This document shows positions 13,375 through 21,826 of a stretch of DNA of 28,138 bases, piece after piece (positions within the stretch are counted from its first letter, which is position 1; every line of letters starts with the position of its first letter). Location of the stretch: the IMG/VR virus record IMGVR_UViG_3300030116_007557, positions 710-28,847 of that record; one strand, 5' to 3'. The translations under genes were made by a program, and so were the position numbers. This DNA is from a virus. Below the pieces are notes generated by a model that worked only from the letters and a program-made list of their open reading frames with translations, was not told the DNA's origin and searched no databases.

Positions 13375-13788
13375 TTATTCAGAGTCTGAAGATAAAAGAT
13401 AAGCTTTTAGAGATTCAGATAATGCTCTTAAGTCTTGAGCGATTCTACCAATCTTTTTAGTCTCGCTTCTAGCAATATCAGCATAAAGAGTTTCGCAAGC
13501 TGAGTTATTTAGCTGGGACTGTATTGATTCAGCGCCAAGACCATTCATATACTCACTAAAGTCGTCAATTTGTTGAATCCATTGTTGTAAAGATTCCATT
13601 TGCCCAGCATTTTCCATATTTTTAGCATCTGCTACAGGATCTGCATCAGGTTGTACATCATCATATGCGTCAGGTGGGGTATTAGGATCTAAGTCAGCCG
13701 CTGCTGCTTGAGCATCAACATCCGGAGCGTCTGCTACTTCTTGTTCAAGCAAGACATTAAAGCGTTTACTATAGAGATTCTGTGACAT
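13375..13788 (-). CDS. Unknown acidic late protein
   Basis: Not recognised. It opens MSQNLYSKRFNVLLEQEV and continues with an Ala/Asp/Pro-rich acidic stretch (about 18-58, for example DVDAQAAAADLDPNTPPDAY) and a helical C-terminal half (MESLQQWIQQIDDFSEYM, RIAQDLRALSESLKAYL). This looks like a flexible acidic region joined to a helical bundle, as in head-core or scaffold components, but there is no specific motif. A perfect TATAAATA precedes it, and a gene for another late helical protein diverges from the same intergenic region. Confidence 0.7.
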   Translation of the reverse strand: MSQNLYSKRFNVLLEQEVADAPDVDAQAAAADLDPNTPPDAYDDVQPDADPVADAKNMENAGQMESLQQWIQQIDDFSEYMNGLGAESIQSQLNNSACETLYADIARSETKKIGRIAQDLRALSESLKAYLLSSDSE

Positions 13789-15601: not shown

Positions 15602-16338
15602 CGATAGTCTCCATAGACATCATCATTATCTCCATACTGAGAATAATCAAATATATCTGCTGACTCTGTATCAACGTCATAACCATATGATTTAGAGTCA
15701 GTTTGTTCATTAGTATACCCTGATAATCTTCCACTAAAGGCATTATCATATACTTGATCAGATTTCTTCTCTGCTGTAAGCCCGGGCTGGAACGTATAAT
15801 CCAATCTTTTGCCTTTAATAAGCCATACATAATGTCCCATTAGAGGATTAATTTCACTTATCTCTTGATCAAGACGTTGAGTTATTTCGAACATTTTAGC
15901 ACCACGACCTCCAGGTCTATCATCACCATACTCTGTAAGCATAAACACGTCACCAGATTTAGGTTCTGGTCGGGTGTCGTTAGCTGAAGACATTGCGGTA
16001 TAATATGAACTAATTGAAATATAAGCTGTTACATCGTCATCTCCAACAATACCAAATTTAGAGAGCAGTACTGATTGTTCAGATAAATTAACATACATTA
16101 TAACACTCTTAGAAGCAAGATATGTTGCATTTGGTTGTTCACCATATAACCCATCATGAGCTGATAACTGATAATTTAAAGCAAAATAGTCTACTTGCTG
16201 CCCATAGATATCAATTTGTTCTTTTAAATAGTAGTAATAATTATTACGTTCATTATCATTAATGCTTTTATCAGAAATACGAAAATCTCCTGTATAGTAT
16301 CTCTGACCTGCTGCATAAGATGGAAAAGGTTCACCCAT
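15598..16338 (-). CDS. 14: Neck protein, T4 gp14-like
   Basis: T4 gp14 forms the head-to-tail neck with gp13. This 246-residue protein (T4 256) shares its order of elements: a Tyr-rich N-terminal part ending QQVDYFALNY, an ISxFG-like element SVLLSKFGIVGDDDVTAYIS (compare T4 KSFFSNFGMQVQDEVTLSI), the EPKSGDVFMLTEYGD segment (compare EPKEGDLIYFP), KMFEITQRL and a QEISEINPLMGHYVWLIKGK region. The C-terminus is Asp/Tyr/Gly-rich (YDVDTESADIFDYSQYGDND). The start ATG overlaps the upstream nucleotidyltransferase stop (TAATG), so it depends on that gene's late promoter. Identity is low but the colinear motifs are persuasive. Confidence 0.65.
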   Translation of the reverse strand: MGEPFPSYAAGQRYYTGDFRISDKSINDNERNNYYYYLKEQIDIYGQQVDYFALNYQLSAHDGLYGEQPNATYLASKSVIMYVNLSEQSVLLSKFGIVGDDDVTAYISISSYYTAMSSANDTRPEPKSGDVFMLTEYGDDRPGGRGAKMFEITQRLDQEISEINPLMGHYVWLIKGKRLDYTFQPGLTAEKKSDQVYDNAFSGRLSGYTNEQTDSKSYGYDVDTESADIFDYSQYGDNDDVYGDYR

Positions 16339-17534
16339 TATTTTTTAAGTATAAAGCAATTTCGTTGAGGGCACCACATAACAACTATTCCTGTGTTACC
16401 TAAATTTCTTGGTTTATCTTTAGTAAGATCACCAACGTTATATTTTTTAATTACCTTTTGTAATATTGCTCCCATGATTGGTATATTATTACTTTTACCG
16501 TCTTTAATTTGTTTAACTTGTATAATTTCGTCTGGATCAGATTTATGACAAGCAGGTACTAAATTTTGATGCAATCTACCCATACCAGTAAACCCGGTCT
16601 GTTGTCTGGTCTTTGGTAAGCCCCCAGACATGCTTAACGCTTTATTTGCTAATGATGCAAAGCTTTCTTTCTTTACAAATAAATTTTTAATATCTTCAAC
16701 TTCACTCTTCTTAACCTTTTCATCCTCTCCTACTATATCTTTAATATGTTTAATAAGATGAATATAATAATAACGTTCTAAAAATTTAAAAATAACATTA
16801 CCTGGTAGGTGAGTCTTTCTACCAAATTTTTTAATTTGTTGACTAGTCATATCTTTCTCAAAAGCATCCTGTCTTGCAGTTTTTATTTCTTTGTAGCTCT
16901 TAAGAAGAATAGAAATATCATAATTGATCTCTTTTAATTTATCATCAAGTTCTGCCTTAAGACCTTTAAGATCCTTTTCTGGTATCTCAACAAGATACGC
17001 ATAATCAAGTACATCTCTCTTTAACTCACCTGCACTAATATCTAATTTATTAAAAATGTCATTAAGTTCAGCTCTATAGTTACTAACTTTTATATTTTTA
17101 GGTTCAGTTTGTTTAATCCATTTATCATTTTTTACATCATATGCTGCTTCTGTTTTTTCAAAATCATAATCAACGTCTGAAATATAATATTGTAAAGGAT
17201 AATTAGTACCAAAAGCTGGTGTCTCATCAACCTTACTCCATAATTTTTCAATTTTATTTTTTATGTTTTCTTTATCAGGTATATCTGCAAAAATATAAAC
17301 ATCAATATCAGCCTTAGGACCATATTGTTTTGTTAATATACTTCCTTTAATAAAAAAACCTTTAACTGGTACTATTCTATTAAACAATGAAACATGTTGT
17401 TTAATTTGAGCTGAGATCTCTGGTTTCAGTCTTGGCTTTTTAGATGCTGGATCTACAAAAACATCTTTAGAGTAAGATTTTCTTGTATTATCAATTGATG
17501 ATTCAAGATGCAATGTTAGATCGTTAAAATGCAT
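16338..17534 (-). CDS. Nucleotidyltransferase-fold protein (Pol-beta-like superfamily), late expressed
   Basis: The 398-residue chain carries the superfamily signature: FFIKGSILTKQYGPKADIDV, with Gly64-Ser65, then ten residues, then Asp76-x-Asp78. A further acidic cluster at 120-124 (SDVDYDF) could supply the third metal ligand. The middle (about 165-240) is a long charged helical region, and the last 100 residues include a basic part (GLPKTRQQTGFTGMGRLHQ). Family members transfer nucleotides to proteins, RNA or antibiotics; the substrate here is unknown. A CTAAATA box lies 6 nt before the ATG and the stop overlaps the gp14 start, so it is made with virion proteins. Its acids appear intact, so activity is plausible. 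Confidence 0.65.
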   Translation of the reverse strand: MHFNDLTLHLESSIDNTRKSYSKDVFVDPASKKPRLKPEISAQIKQHVSLFNRIVPVKGFFIKGSILTKQYGPKADIDVYIFADIPDKENIKNKIEKLWSKVDETPAFGTNYPLQYYISDVDYDFEKTEAAYDVKNDKWIKQTEPKNIKVSNYRAELNDIFNKLDISAGELKRDVLDYAYLVEIPEKDLKGLKAELDDKLKEINYDISILLKSYKEIKTARQDAFEKDMTSQQIKKFGRKTHLPGNVIFKFLERYYYIHLIKHIKDIVGEDEKVKKSEVEDIKNLFVKKESFASLANKALSMSGGLPKTRQQTGFTGMGRLHQNLVPACHKSDPDEIIQVKQIKDGKSNNIPIMGAILQKVIKKYNVGDLTKDKPRNLGNTGIVVMWCPQRNCFILKK

Positions 17535-18305: not shown

Positions 18306-18459
18306 CTTTATTTTTTTCTTCTATAGTTTTTTCTACTTTGTTTTGGAATTTTACATCTCGCTTAGCTTCAGCATTTTGAATCATTTCTTTACTGTTTTTA
18401 CGTTTAAAGATAGTTCCAATTATATCAAATAATCCACCAAGTAATTTTAAAATACCCAT
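18277..18459 (-). CDS. Short membrane-associated protein, possible inner-membrane spanin subunit
   Basis: A 60-residue protein with an N-terminal hydrophobic or amphipathic helix (GILKLLGGLFDIIGTIF, 2-18), then a charged coiled-coil-like segment (SKEMIQNAEAKRDVKFQNKV, then EKTIEEKNKDEMR). This is the general layout of an i-spanin, though shorter than usual and with an Asp inside the hydrophobic stretch. It is co-transcribed with, and overlaps, the lipoprotein gene. A CTAAATA box precedes it. Confidence 0.55.
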   Translation of the reverse strand: MGILKLLGGLFDIIGTIFKRKNSKEMIQNAEAKRDVKFQNKVEKTIEEKNKDEMRNLLSE

Positions 18460-18480: not shown

Positions 18481-18503
18481 AAAAAAAGCCTCCCGAAGGA
18501 GGC
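18481..18503 (-). terminator. Rho-independent terminator with TTCG loop
   Basis: On the minus strand GCCTCC-TTCG-GGAGGC (18503-18488) is followed by seven T (18487-18481). Perfect 6-bp GC-rich stem with the stable TTCG tetraloop, 24 nt after the stop of the acidic protein gene. Confidence 0.92.
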
Positions 18504-18527
18504 TATAATCTATGAGGTTATTGTTTA

Positions 18528-19316
18528 TTAGAGCTTAGCGCCAACTTTATGATTACCGGCTGTCTTAGCTTTTGTATTGTGCGGAACACCGTCCTTAGCA
18601 GGCTTAGGATCTCCACCATCAGCAGCAGTGGCCTTAGCATCTGCACTACCTGGGGTTGGATCAGCAGCACCAGCTACTTTATTGTCACCACCAGCATGAC
18701 CAGACTTAGCATTTACTAATGCGTGACCGTGATCTTCATGCTCAACCTCTTCTTCAAAAGGATCGTTAGCATCTTCAAGGTCCTCCATGTCGTCGCCAGC
18801 GTCATCATCCATGGAATCAAGAACTTCTTGAAGAGTTTCGATGCATGATTGGACCTTGCTCTTAAGATCACCATCATCACCACCTTCTTCATCACCTTCA
18901 GGATCCATATCAAGATCCATGCCGTCATGTAAGTCCTCGGCAGGAAGCTCGAATTCAGCTTCCCCCATTACGTCTTCAAAAAGTTTATCAAATGTAGATT
19001 TATCACTCATAGTAAAATTATTTATTTCTTCTTGGTCATTTTCCTGGAGATTTTCGATATTTTTTACTGATTCTTTACTAACAGTATTAGAATATTTGTC
19101 TTCCTCATAGGAAGAATCATCTTTTTTCTTTTTAGGATCAAGTTCAGGTGCGTGAAACCCGTCTGCATTCGCAGGACCACCATCATCAAATACCTTACCA
19201 GTGCTTCCCTCACTACCGTGCTGTTCTAATTCTTGAGCGCCCGGACCAGGCTTAGTTGGAAGTACTACATCCTCATTATAGATATTGTTTAAATCGTCAA
19301 TGTACTGCTTAGGCAT
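18528..19316 (-). CDS. Acidic low-complexity late protein; possible fusion of two genes
   Basis: Not recognised. A 262-residue, very acidic protein. Residues 1-102 (MPKQYIDDLNNIYNEDVVL..., with ELDPKKKKDD) are polar and disordered. From Met103 (MSDKSTFDKLFEDVMGEAEF) a second start-like sequence leads into an Asp/Glu-rich region (DLDMDPEGDEEGGDDGD), a helix (VQSCIETLQEVLDSMDDD) and an Ala/Gly/Asp/Lys-rich tail ending TAGNHKVGAKL. TATAAATA lies 5 nt before the first ATG, and AATAAATA lies 8 nt before the internal ATG at 19010, so a 160-residue internal product is possible. The codons of the acidic half are richer in GC than their surroundings. A structural or head-core role is only a guess. A strong terminator follows. 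Confidence 0.75.
   Translation of the reverse strand: MPKQYIDDLNNIYNEDVVLPTKPGPGAQELEQHGSEGSTGKVFDDGGPANADGFHAPELDPKKKKDDSSYEEDKYSNTVSKESVKNIENLQENDQEEINNFTMSDKSTFDKLFEDVMGEAEFELPAEDLHDGMDLDMDPEGDEEGGDDGDLKSKVQSCIETLQEVLDSMDDDAGDDMEDLEDANDPFEEEVEHEDHGHALVNAKSGHAGGDNKVAGAADPTPGSADAKATAADGGDPKPAKDGVPHNTKAKTAGNHKVGAKL
19019..19026 (-). promoter_or_regulatory. Internal late promoter box AATAAATA
   Basis: Lies inside the acidic protein gene, 8 nt before an in-frame ATG (19010-19008, codon 103). The same spacing is seen at 13352 and 13797. Chance occurrence in AT-rich coding DNA is possible. Confidence 0.4.
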
Positions 19317-19321
19317 ATTAA

Positions 19322-19329
19322 TATTTATA
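19322..19329 (-). promoter_or_regulatory. T4-type late promoter box TATAAATA (perfect)
   Basis: Exact consensus on the minus strand, 5 nt before ATG 19316 of the acidic protein gene. Confidence 0.8.
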
Positions 19330-19346: not shown

Positions 19347-20027
19347 TTATATTTTTAATTCGAATAATCCGTTATACCCATAATATTTGTTAGATTGCTT
19401 AATATGATGTACTGCTTTATTATATACAATTTTGTCATGTTCATTATGAGTCATATCAGTAAATAGCTCTGCATCACGTGTACATTGAAAGTTAACCATT
19501 TCAAAATCAGGGTATTGAAGTTTTAAAAACATACCTGTCCAGTGATCTACGTAATGATGTTTAAAAGCTTCACTTAATATCCTTCCTGCAAATTCCTCTT
19601 CAATAATTCTTCTATGTAAACAGGGTATGTATATAACAGGATATCTAAAAGGAGACAAATGTCCATAACGCCTAATTTCATGAGTATAATTTTCTTTATG
19701 TATATTAAAAATATGTGACTGTGGATATTCTTTTGGTAGTTCCTTAAACCAATATCGAGGATCTTTTGCTAGATGTATATCATCTGTAAGAAGACATATC
19801 CAATCATATGAAGCATGTCTATAACCTTCATTATAATTTTCAACTGAAGTAAAAAATTTTGTATGTATATATTTTGCTGACGGGTCTATATCAGTATAAC
19901 TGCGCTCACTTGTAAAAATTATTTCATAATTGTTATCGCATATATTATTAATAGCATTAATAGATTGATTAATAAAAGTGCTATCTCTTTTTGACGTAAT
20001 AATAAAACTTATTTGTGTATCATACAT
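19347..20027 (-). CDS. Glycosyltransferase-like protein (GT-A, family-2 type)
   Basis: The 226-residue chain opens with a strand (TQISFIITSKRD) like family-2 glycosyltransferases. It then has a second strand (YEIIFTSERSY), NEGYRHASYDWICLLTDDIHL at about 66-86 with TDD at 81-83 as the likely DxD-type metal site, and a Trp/His-rich acceptor part (HHYVDHWTGMFLKLQYPDFE). No membrane segment. It is a second glycosyltransferase, unlike the one at 2206. ATG 20027 is preferred; a late box diverging from that of the terminase gene lies 13 nt upstream. The acceptor is unknown: virion protein or host glycan are possible. Confidence 0.65.
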   Translation of the reverse strand: MYDTQISFIITSKRDSTFINQSINAINNICDNNYEIIFTSERSYTDIDPSAKYIHTKFFTSVENYNEGYRHASYDWICLLTDDIHLAKDPRYWFKELPKEYPQSHIFNIHKENYTHEIRRYGHLSPFRYPVIYIPCLHRRIIEEEFAGRILSEAFKHHYVDHWTGMFLKLQYPDFEMVNFQCTRDAELFTDMTHNEHDKIVYNKAVHHIKQSNKYYGYNGLFELKI

Positions 20028-20050: not shown

Positions 20051-21826
20051 ATGCCTAAAAAACAACAAGATGATAAATTTTATCTTGGTAATAAAAACTT
20101 ACCTAGACCAGAGCAGGAGTTTGAATGGACTCCAAAAATGGCTCGTGATCTAAAGAAGTGCAAACAAAATATTTTATATTTTGCAGAAAATTATTTTTAT
20201 ATTGTTAATCTAGATCGCGGTAAAGAAAAAATTAAACTACATGCTTGTCAAAAAAGAACTTTACGAGATTTAAGAGATAACAGATTTGTATCATTACTTG
20301 CTTCTCGCCAGGTTGGTAAAACCACAATGATGACAATATACTGTTTATGGATAGCATGCTTTCAAGAAGATCAACGTATATTAATTGTTGCTAACAAAGA
20401 GCAAACAGCAATCAATATTTTTAAACGAGTTAGATTAGCGTATGAAAGTTTACCTAATTTTTTGAAACCAGGAGTTGAAGAATATGGTAAAACTGGCATG
20501 CAACTTGCAAATGGTTCCAGTATTGGTATATCAACTACCTCATCGGATGCTGGTCGTGGTGATTCTTGTAACGTTTTAATTCTGGATGAGCTTGCATTTA
20601 TTGATAACCATCTTGTAAGAGACTTTTGGAAATCTGTCTTCCCTATTATTTCATCTTCTAAAAAATCTAAAATCTTTATAGCAAGTACTCCTAATGGTAC
20701 CGATAATTTATTTTATGAATTATACAGTAACGCTGAAAAGGGTATTAATAACTGGAAAGCATCTCGAATAGACTGGCATGAAATACCTGGTAGAGATGAT
20801 AAGTGGAAAGAAGACACTATCAAAGCTCTTGGTTCAATGGAAGCTTTTAATCAAGAATTTGGTAATGTGTTTTTACAGACTGGAGAATCAGCAATTGATG
20901 ATGAACTTTTTGATAAGTTAAAATTAAGCTGTAGAGAACCAGAATTTATTTTTGATGATGGGAAATATTTGTTATGGGAAGAACCTAATCCAGATCATCT
21001 ATATGTTGTAGGTGTTGATATATCTGAAGGTGTTGGTGAAAATGCATCTGTTGTACAAGTGATGGATATGACAGATCTTAAAAACATAAAACAAGTAGCA
21101 ACGTACTGGAACAATCATATATCTCCTTATAAGTTTACTACTAAATTATATGAAATATTATCTCATTGGGGATTTCCGCCATCTGCTATCGAGAGAAACA
21201 ATTGTGGTGCGCAAGTTGTAGATAATCTGGCTAACACGCACGGCTTCACAAATATTATTAGCTTTTCACCTAAAAAATCCGCTTCAAGGTCTTACGACCG
21301 GCTTGGTGTTATTGCTCATACAAATACTAAGTACAAAGGTGTAATGAATATGCGTTACTGGGTCAATGAACTTAGATGCGTTGAGTTTCATGACATAAAT
21401 ACTATTAACGAACTAAAAGACTTTGTAAGGTATCCGAACGGTACTTGGGCTGCAAAAAGAGAACAAGGCGCATTAGATGATAGAGTAATGTCTCTTATAT
21501 GGTCATTAATAGCTCTAGAAAATAGTGTTACAGAAAGATACTTTGATATTGTTGAGTTAGATGATAATGAGCGACCAGCAAAAATACAGCCATTAGATTA
21601 TGGAGTTAAAAATTTTGTTAGTCCAACATCAATGTATATGAATGAGAAGGGTGGAAAAGGTGGTCAAGTAGGTACACCAGTTTATTTTCCTGGAGATGGT
21701 AGCGGAGGTGGTACAGGCGATGATATTGCAGAGTTAAATAGTATGGGGTACCATATGCTAGGTACACCTGAAAGTACAGATGATGGCTGGCAACCATTAC
21801 AAAATGATTTTGATATTTATCAATAG
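20051..21826 (+). CDS. 17: Terminase large subunit, T4 gp17
   Basis: Packaging motor ATPase and headful nuclease. The 591 residues compare with 610 in T4. ATPase domain: LLASRQVGKTTMM with Walker A SRQVGKTT at 85-92, Walker B NVLILDELAF with Asp179/Glu180, and the coupling motif FIASTPNGT at about 209-217. RNase-H-fold nuclease domain: YVVGVDISEG with Asp323, AIERNNCGAQ with Glu381 and GALDDRVMSLIW with Asp476/Asp477, matching T4 Asp401, Glu458 and Asp542. The last 60 residues are Gly-rich and less conserved. No small-terminase (gp16) gene lies before it; a divergent glycosyltransferase gene does. Confidence 0.96.
   Translation: MPKKQQDDKFYLGNKNLPRPEQEFEWTPKMARDLKKCKQNILYFAENYFYIVNLDRGKEKIKLHACQKRTLRDLRDNRFVSLLASRQVGKTTMMTIYCLWIACFQEDQRILIVANKEQTAINIFKRVRLAYESLPNFLKPGVEEYGKTGMQLANGSSIGISTTSSDAGRGDSCNVLILDELAFIDNHLVRDFWKSVFPIISSSKKSKIFIASTPNGTDNLFYELYSNAEKGINNWKASRIDWHEIPGRDDKWKEDTIKALGSMEAFNQEFGNVFLQTGESAIDDELFDKLKLSCREPEFIFDDGKYLLWEEPNPDHLYVVGVDISEGVGENASVVQVMDMTDLKNIKQVATYWNNHISPYKFTTKLYEILSHWGFPPSAIERNNCGAQVVDNLANTHGFTNIISFSPKKSASRSYDRLGVIAHTNTKYKGVMNMRYWVNELRCVEFHDINTINELKDFVRYPNGTWAAKREQGALDDRVMSLIWSLIALENSVTERYFDIVELDDNERPAKIQPLDYGVKNFVSPTSMYMNEKGGKGGQVGTPVYFPGDGSGGGTGDDIAELNSMGYHMLGTPESTDDGWQPLQNDFDIYQ

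Follow-up and report, generated by a model that had tools for sequence, protein, structure and literature searches.

The window, i.e., the whole stretch of 28,138 nucleotides that was analysed, is part of a 28,847-base IMG/VR record. T4-type proteins identified in the window by PHROG comparisons include a replicative helicase, single-strand binding protein, sliding clamp, terminase, tail sheath and tail tube. The acidic gene under study is located on the minus strand and is divergent from a gp17-like large terminase gene (20051-21826, +) whose product is 34-38% identical to the terminases of the best-listed phages, e.g., phiM9 and marine cyanophages. A weakly glycosyltransferase-like gene (19347-20027, -) is situated between the two, and the relatives L005 and L007 have such a gene at the same place, which L002 and L009 lack. 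The features of the acidic gene, all on the minus strand, are as follows.

18528..19316, minus strand: outer (long) late gene, an open reading frame of 262 aa, acidic and mostly predicted to be disordered
19322..19329, minus strand: putative outer late promoter box TATAAATA, 5 nt upstream of the ATG at 19316
19011..19316, minus strand: upstream part, codons 1-102, present in the long product only (dN/dS; conserved N-terminal helix at residues 3-16)
19019..19026, minus strand: putative inner late promoter box AATAAATA, within the coding sequence, 8 nt before the ATG at 19010
18528..19010, minus strand: inner (short) gene of 160 aa that shares frame and stop with the long gene (ATG conservation; dN/dS)
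18969..19010, minus strand: predicted N-terminal amphipathic helix of the short product, MSDKSTFDKLFEDV (conservation; model of the relative L086; likeness to capsid-targeting peptides)
18487..18504, minus strand: terminator-like hairpin with a T run, directly past the shared stop (sequence)

An earlier note on this DNA had drawn attention to an internal start at codon 103 preceded at exactly 8 nt by a late-type box, to the similarity of this geometry to that of other late promoters in the window, and to a perfect box for the part before codon 103. The feature and its geometry are real. The ATG at 19010 is codon 103 of the 262-aa gene, the 160-aa frame that it opens begins MSDKSTFDKLFEDVMGEAEF, and AATAAATA at 19026-19019 precedes it by 8 nt, while TATAAATA at 19329-19322 stands 5 nt from the outer ATG. 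In the same scan, other late-type starts of the window were found with spacings of 8 nt (at 13788 and 13343) and 5 nt (at 18459 and 17861), and NATAAATA at either spacing preceded only five of the 1084 ATG triplets on both strands of the window. The next gene downstream possesses its own ACTAAATA box 5 nt before its ATG. In 31 of 72 relatives, a hairpin similar to that past the shared stop was detected no more than 110 nt from the stop, compared to 0 of 72 random pieces.

Relatives were retrieved with the peptide K[SP][TKV]FD[KQ]L[FY] in two IMG/VR alignment scans. The peptide is downstream of the inner start, and thus neither the box nor the ATG was selected for. The scans reported 142 and 228 relatives from which the best 80 of each were kept. 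The first set (best 80 of 142), with loci from earlier scans and the window, comprised 86 frames that fell into 42 clusters at 90% identity, the second (best 80 of 228) comprised 80 frames in 34 clusters, and the joint non-redundant set (best 80 of 142 plus best 80 of 228, hereafter the joint set) consisted of 74 clusters at 90%. The earlier scans, with the window protein and with the neighboring neck gene, had yielded three and six loci, respectively, in which a single frame was observed wherever the acidic gene was still present. Excluded before clustering were L006 and L012, which are from the contig of L001, and L004 and L008 yielded no row; other same-contig repeats, L002/L046, L003/L049, L005/L011 and L079/L100 among them, were collapsed through clustering alone. 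The conservation counts below ignore shared ancestry, against which clustering at 50% is the nearest guard. In a host search of GTDB genomes, 78 matches to the pattern included no relative, and searches of Pfam, PHROGs, PDB sequences and INPHARED produced no usable match, the last by tblastn, which masks low-complexity sequence and may let acidic proteins escape. A PHROG match to a major head protein was weak (best E 0.026, 14 of 42 members), spanned the acidic stretch, and was disbelieved. No equivalent of the acidic gene is annotated beside gp17 in the phiM9 and S-WAM1 neighborhoods. Two further observations concern genes nearby in the relatives. The large terminase gene is interrupted in L002:830-3880 and in L003, with intein-like ends and a GIY-YIG-like frame between the halves as judged by eye, and very long SGYSG-repeat (collagen-like) proteins are encoded downstream of the neck gene at L009:6068-10708 and L010:4957-7064.

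The inner ATG is kept in all 74 clusters of the joint set (best 80 of 142 plus best 80 of 228) and is preceded by TAAATA in 73 of these, at 5 nt in 69 and at 8 nt in four, the latter spacing being that of the subgroup to which the window belongs. The motif is missing only in L009: in this distant relative (L009/L010) the inner ATG is present and a recognizable box is absent. At 50% clustering of the joint set, the box is retained in 11 of 12 clusters. In the first clade (42 clusters, best 80 of 142), the inner box is TATAAATA at 5 nt in 30 clusters and AATAAATA in ten, at 5 nt in five and at 8 nt in five; NATAAATA is lacking at the inner start in two, L009 and L079, the second of which has ACTAAATA. 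All inner boxes of the second clade (34 clusters, best 80 of 228) are at 5 nt, as CCTAAATA (17), ACTAAATA (10), CTTAAATA (4) or ATTAAATA (3). Thus, the inner box of the window, with its 8-nt spacing and A at -13, is not the commonest form in the group.

The codons that carry the box are fixed to a degree that the amino acids do not demand. Where codon -4 specifies isoleucine in the joint set, it is ATA in 35 of 35 cases compared to 253 of 937 isoleucine codons elsewhere, and where it specifies leucine in the second clade (best 80 of 228) it is CTA or TTA in 34 of 34 compared to 268 of 694 elsewhere. Codon -3 is asparagine in 73 of the 74 joint clusters, encoded by AAT in 73 of 73. The residue preceding codon -4 varies over many amino acids. 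As the box codons are fixed while adjacent residues vary, the constraint acts on the DNA. In a recoding control, the six upstream codons were replaced by synonymous ones in 200 runs according to the codon usage of the family: the box was kept in a mean of 17.8 and a maximum of 31 of the 74 clusters, in comparison with the 73 observed (best 80 of 142 plus best 80 of 228). Other internal methionine codons were accompanied by a box in eight of 435 cases, of which seven are true first starts and one is an adjoining MM. Synonymous divergence between the window and L011 is 1.6 in the upstream part, yet just one of the 24 bases preceding the inner ATG differs between them.

The outer start shows a similar arrangement. 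In 67 of the 74 clusters of the joint set (best 80 of 142 plus best 80 of 228), TAAATA precedes the first start by 4-9 nt, and in 59 of them by 5 nt; two of the seven exceptions are truncated by contig ends and five of the 74 have complete upstream sequence without the box. Among 16 close pairs chosen by hand, dN/dS was 0.06-0.34 in the upstream part and 0.12-0.36 downstream of the inner start, ratios by which both halves are under purifying selection; by the former range, the upstream part is more than filler. An N-terminal helix at residues 3-16 of the upstream part is conserved in the alignment and appears in a low-confidence AlphaFold2 model; the mean pLDDT of the long form was 49.6. The upstream part ranges from about 108 to 339 aa among relatives. 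In L013 (3112-4176), the long form carries a Gly/Ala-rich, zipper-like insert of ~85 aa immediately ahead of the inner start, and L001 (2-643), which is cut by the contig end, probably contains the same insert. A swapped upstream part had been considered for L001 and was abandoned when L013 revealed an insertion instead. A single continuous frame is maintained in the 160 loci kept (best 80 of 142 plus best 80 of 228) and in the other examined loci that hold the gene, save a few cut by contig ends.

In the second clade (L100-L179, e.g., L146:2089-3588 and L112:2971-4197) the long form is built of variable modules in series. One to six copies of an EEDEE-like acidic peptide mark the module borders in all 34 second-clade relatives (best 80 of 228), and the peptide is absent from other frames of at least 60 aa in the same loci. 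In 21 of the 34 (best 80 of 228) it ends 12-30 residues before the inner methionine. By sequence, the second-clade long form resembles a precursor in which cut or linker sites recur.

The spacing between late box and start was assessed in other genes. Among ATG frames of at least 45 codons with TATAAATA no more than 20 nt away in the first 42 loci, the spacing was exactly 5 nt for 29 of 47, and other NATAAATA boxes were at this distance for 20 of 38 starts, whereas five control 8-mers showed no peak at 5 nt. In 140 kb of the relative G001 (L091-L097) the box was at 5 nt in 18 of 39 cases. Many genes, in G001, in the first-scan loci, and in the window at 18459, 17861 and 19316, have late boxes exactly 5 nt, sometimes 6 nt, before the ATG. 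Of the 16 boxes that T4 (49 kb) has no more than 300 nt from an annotated start, 12 are 14-35 nt away and none is nearer; S-WAM1 and phiM9 (49 kb each, with few boxes) display no peak at 5 nt. A Shine-Dalgarno-like motif at the usual distance accompanies 11 of 12 late-box genes in T4, compared to one of 45 in G001 and one of eight in the window. The motif was found in eight of 87 G001 genes without a box, indicating that weak use of Shine-Dalgarno sequences is general in G001.

Both boxes of the acidic gene fit the T4-type (gp55) late promoter, the outer as TATAAATA and the inner as AATAAATA, a known variant with A at -13. This base occurs at nine of 50 T4 late sites according to PMC2988020, whose numbering implies that the T4 late box extends from -13 to -6. 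The cyanophage late promoter is given as NATAAATA in PMC2984593. A gp55 homolog is encoded in eight of nine long relative records, a sample that is separate from the 28.8-kb record of the window. With a box from -13 to -6 and a spacing of 5 nt, position +1 falls on the A of the ATG. We infer from the T4 +1 position that the late mRNAs of the group would be leaderless. A remark in PMC5312081 states that phage transcripts often are leaderless; searches of an open-access library showed no description of leaderless late mRNAs for a part of the T4 superfamily.

Conservation of the inner box and ATG, together with purifying selection on both halves, argues strongly for a nested in-frame late gene with two promoters that is conserved across the group, an interpretation that we regard as likely. 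The arrangement is old and group-wide and is not a local accident. Two T4-type late promoters, one before and one inside the open reading frame and each a few bases from an in-frame ATG, would direct synthesis of two late proteins with a common C-terminus, of 262 and 160 aa in the window. Both promoter activity at the two boxes and the pair of products are predictions. Where box and ATG are separated by 5 nt, transcription would begin at the A of the ATG to produce a leaderless mRNA, so that the promoter itself would fix the translation start; the 8-nt inner spacing of the window subgroup would leave a 3-nt leader.

That the AT-rich genome simply yields TAAATA near an internal ATG by chance has in its favor the base composition of the window and relatives, in which AAT and ATA codons are common. 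However, no genuine box accompanies other internal methionines of the same frames, and the box is kept in 73 of 74 joint clusters (best 80 of 142 plus best 80 of 228) when recoding never exceeded 31, which refutes the chance reading and reduces its probability to a negligible level. The inner box might instead serve only to transcribe downstream genes, the inner ATG being unused, and late genes do follow on the same strand. This is improbable: the ATG is invariant in the 74 joint clusters, the box is at 5 or 8 nt in 73 (best 80 of 142 plus best 80 of 228), a hairpin of terminator type comes after the shared stop both in the window and in 31 of 72 relatives, and the next gene has a late box of its own. 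A further alternative is that a prohead protease cuts the short form from the long form and that the box arises incidentally from conservation of a peptide. A gp21-type protease is encoded in one of ten relatives (G001), and the EEDEE-like peptide ends 12-30 residues before the inner methionine in the 21 of 34 second-clade relatives (best 80 of 228) described above, but the peptide at the box differs between clades, being IN in one and LN in the other, whereas the DNA box stays constant and synonymous codons are fixed there. Proteolysis as the source of the short form is accordingly judged highly improbable.

The remaining alternative concerns origin and predicts the same expression as the nested arrangement. 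The earlier note had explained the locus as two neighboring late genes fused in frame, the second of which retained its promoter and start. The two late-type boxes and the two nested in-frame starts of that proposal stand and are conserved; the fusion itself does not share this support, as the relatives examined are all single-frame. Both halves possess a late box, a start and an N-terminal helix of their own, and the junction tolerates large changes, including the ~85-aa insert of L013 and probably L001 and the variation of the upstream part from ~108 to 339 aa, as might be expected of joined genes. On the other hand, two separate genes were not observed in any of the 160 loci (best 80 of 142 plus best 80 of 228) or in the other loci examined, no intermediate was seen among them, and gain of an inner promoter inside one gene fits equally well. 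The converse pattern, i.e., full-length homologs with a conserved junction and no inner box, also is not what was found, the box being present in 73 of 74 joint clusters. As no relative has two separate genes, fusion is only a possible origin, to which nearly even weight is given.

The start of the short form is the most conserved stretch in A3, A4 and A6. It reads MKSTFDKLFE or MSDKSTFDKLFE, which by eye only resemble the T4 sequences MKTFKEF and MKTYQEFIAE, and a low-confidence AlphaFold2 model of L086 places a helix at residues 4-17 of the short form, with pLDDT 79 for the first block. A loose pattern of the targeting-peptide type is present at the start of 27 of 127 late-box open reading frames compared to 18 of 469 others, counts in which relatives are not collapsed. 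Other late proteins of the group begin similarly, MKSKFDTIFEAY and MSLYVKKFSKFLNE among them. In T4-type targeting peptides, a cleavage site of the form (I or L)-x-E follows. The LxE site is not kept throughout the group: LFE is present in the window and first clade, and LYD, LYN or LFD in many second-clade relatives. The remainder of the short form is acidic, like T4 gp67. The acidic gene is situated beside gp17 and not gp20-gp21; gp22-like and gp23-like genes follow gp21 in G001, as judged by eye. The targeting-like N-terminal helix and the acidic remainder favor, as a distinctly tentative assignment, an acidic protein of the prohead core or the head interior. Against this assignment stand the loss of the LxE site in many second-clade relatives, the location beside gp17, the lack of a significant match in Pfam, PHROGs or PDB, and the low confidence of the models. 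The long and short forms would then both be produced late in infection as structural or internal head proteins, and the N-terminal helix of the short form would act like the capsid-targeting peptide of T4 internal proteins. Separately, the window late genes at 13375-13788 (-) and 16338-17534 (-) encode similar amphipathic starts, MSQNLYSKRFNVLLEQE and MHFNDLTLHLESS; the product of the latter is weakly nucleotidyltransferase-like and could be a head-packaged enzyme by analogy with T4 Alt.

A broader proposal, held with somewhat less than even confidence, is that the late promoters of this uncultured T4-like group also act as the signal for translation start. Late mRNAs would be leaderless and devoid of Shine-Dalgarno sequences, and genes could be embedded in others by writing box and ATG into codons. 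In this way, the acidic gene would make a short form that is constant and a long form that swaps modules, the latter perhaps a precursor that is packaged in the head and cut at the repeated EEDEE peptides. The nested gene offers a clean, testable case of two proteins from one frame, of which gene callers may overlook the inner one. It also suggests that part of the T4 superfamily transcribes its late genes without leaders.

Several known systems resemble the acidic gene in part. The roles of T4 gp67 and the internal proteins are treated in PMC9958956. The small protein gp67 has a very acidic tail, and internal proteins IPI-III begin with a short targeting helix (ipI MKTFKEF; ipII/ipIII MKTYQEFIAEA), which the predicted helix of the short form resembles by eye. 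However, the family search revealed no detectable homology of the acidic gene with either, gp67 is encoded between gp20 and gp21 and the acidic gene beside gp17, and no nested long form is annotated for the internal proteins. Nested in-frame products also are annotated for T4 genes 21 and 26, but for gene 21 as internal translation initiation and not as an inner promoter. In lambda C/Nu3, the scaffold protein arises from an in-frame start inside a longer head gene; this system, likened here by description only, is not known to carry a separate late promoter at that start. T4 gene 17 is similar in that gp17, gp17' and gp17'' are, per the T4 record, nested late products with the same C-terminus, the shorter of which result from internal transcription and in-frame translation. 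As in the 17/17' type, the products of the acidic gene would share frame and stop, with the inner start in 74 of 74 joint clusters (best 80 of 142 plus best 80 of 228). Gene 17 differs in specifying a terminase protein and in having no TATAAATA in the 40 nt before its annotated inner starts, whereas in the acidic gene the inner box-ATG geometry is that of an ordinary late gene start and is conserved across a large group. Overlapping in-frame late genes of T4-like phages were known previously as single T4 cases; new here is a probable nested late gene kept over a large uncultured group, with its promoter written in codons and held at the DNA level.
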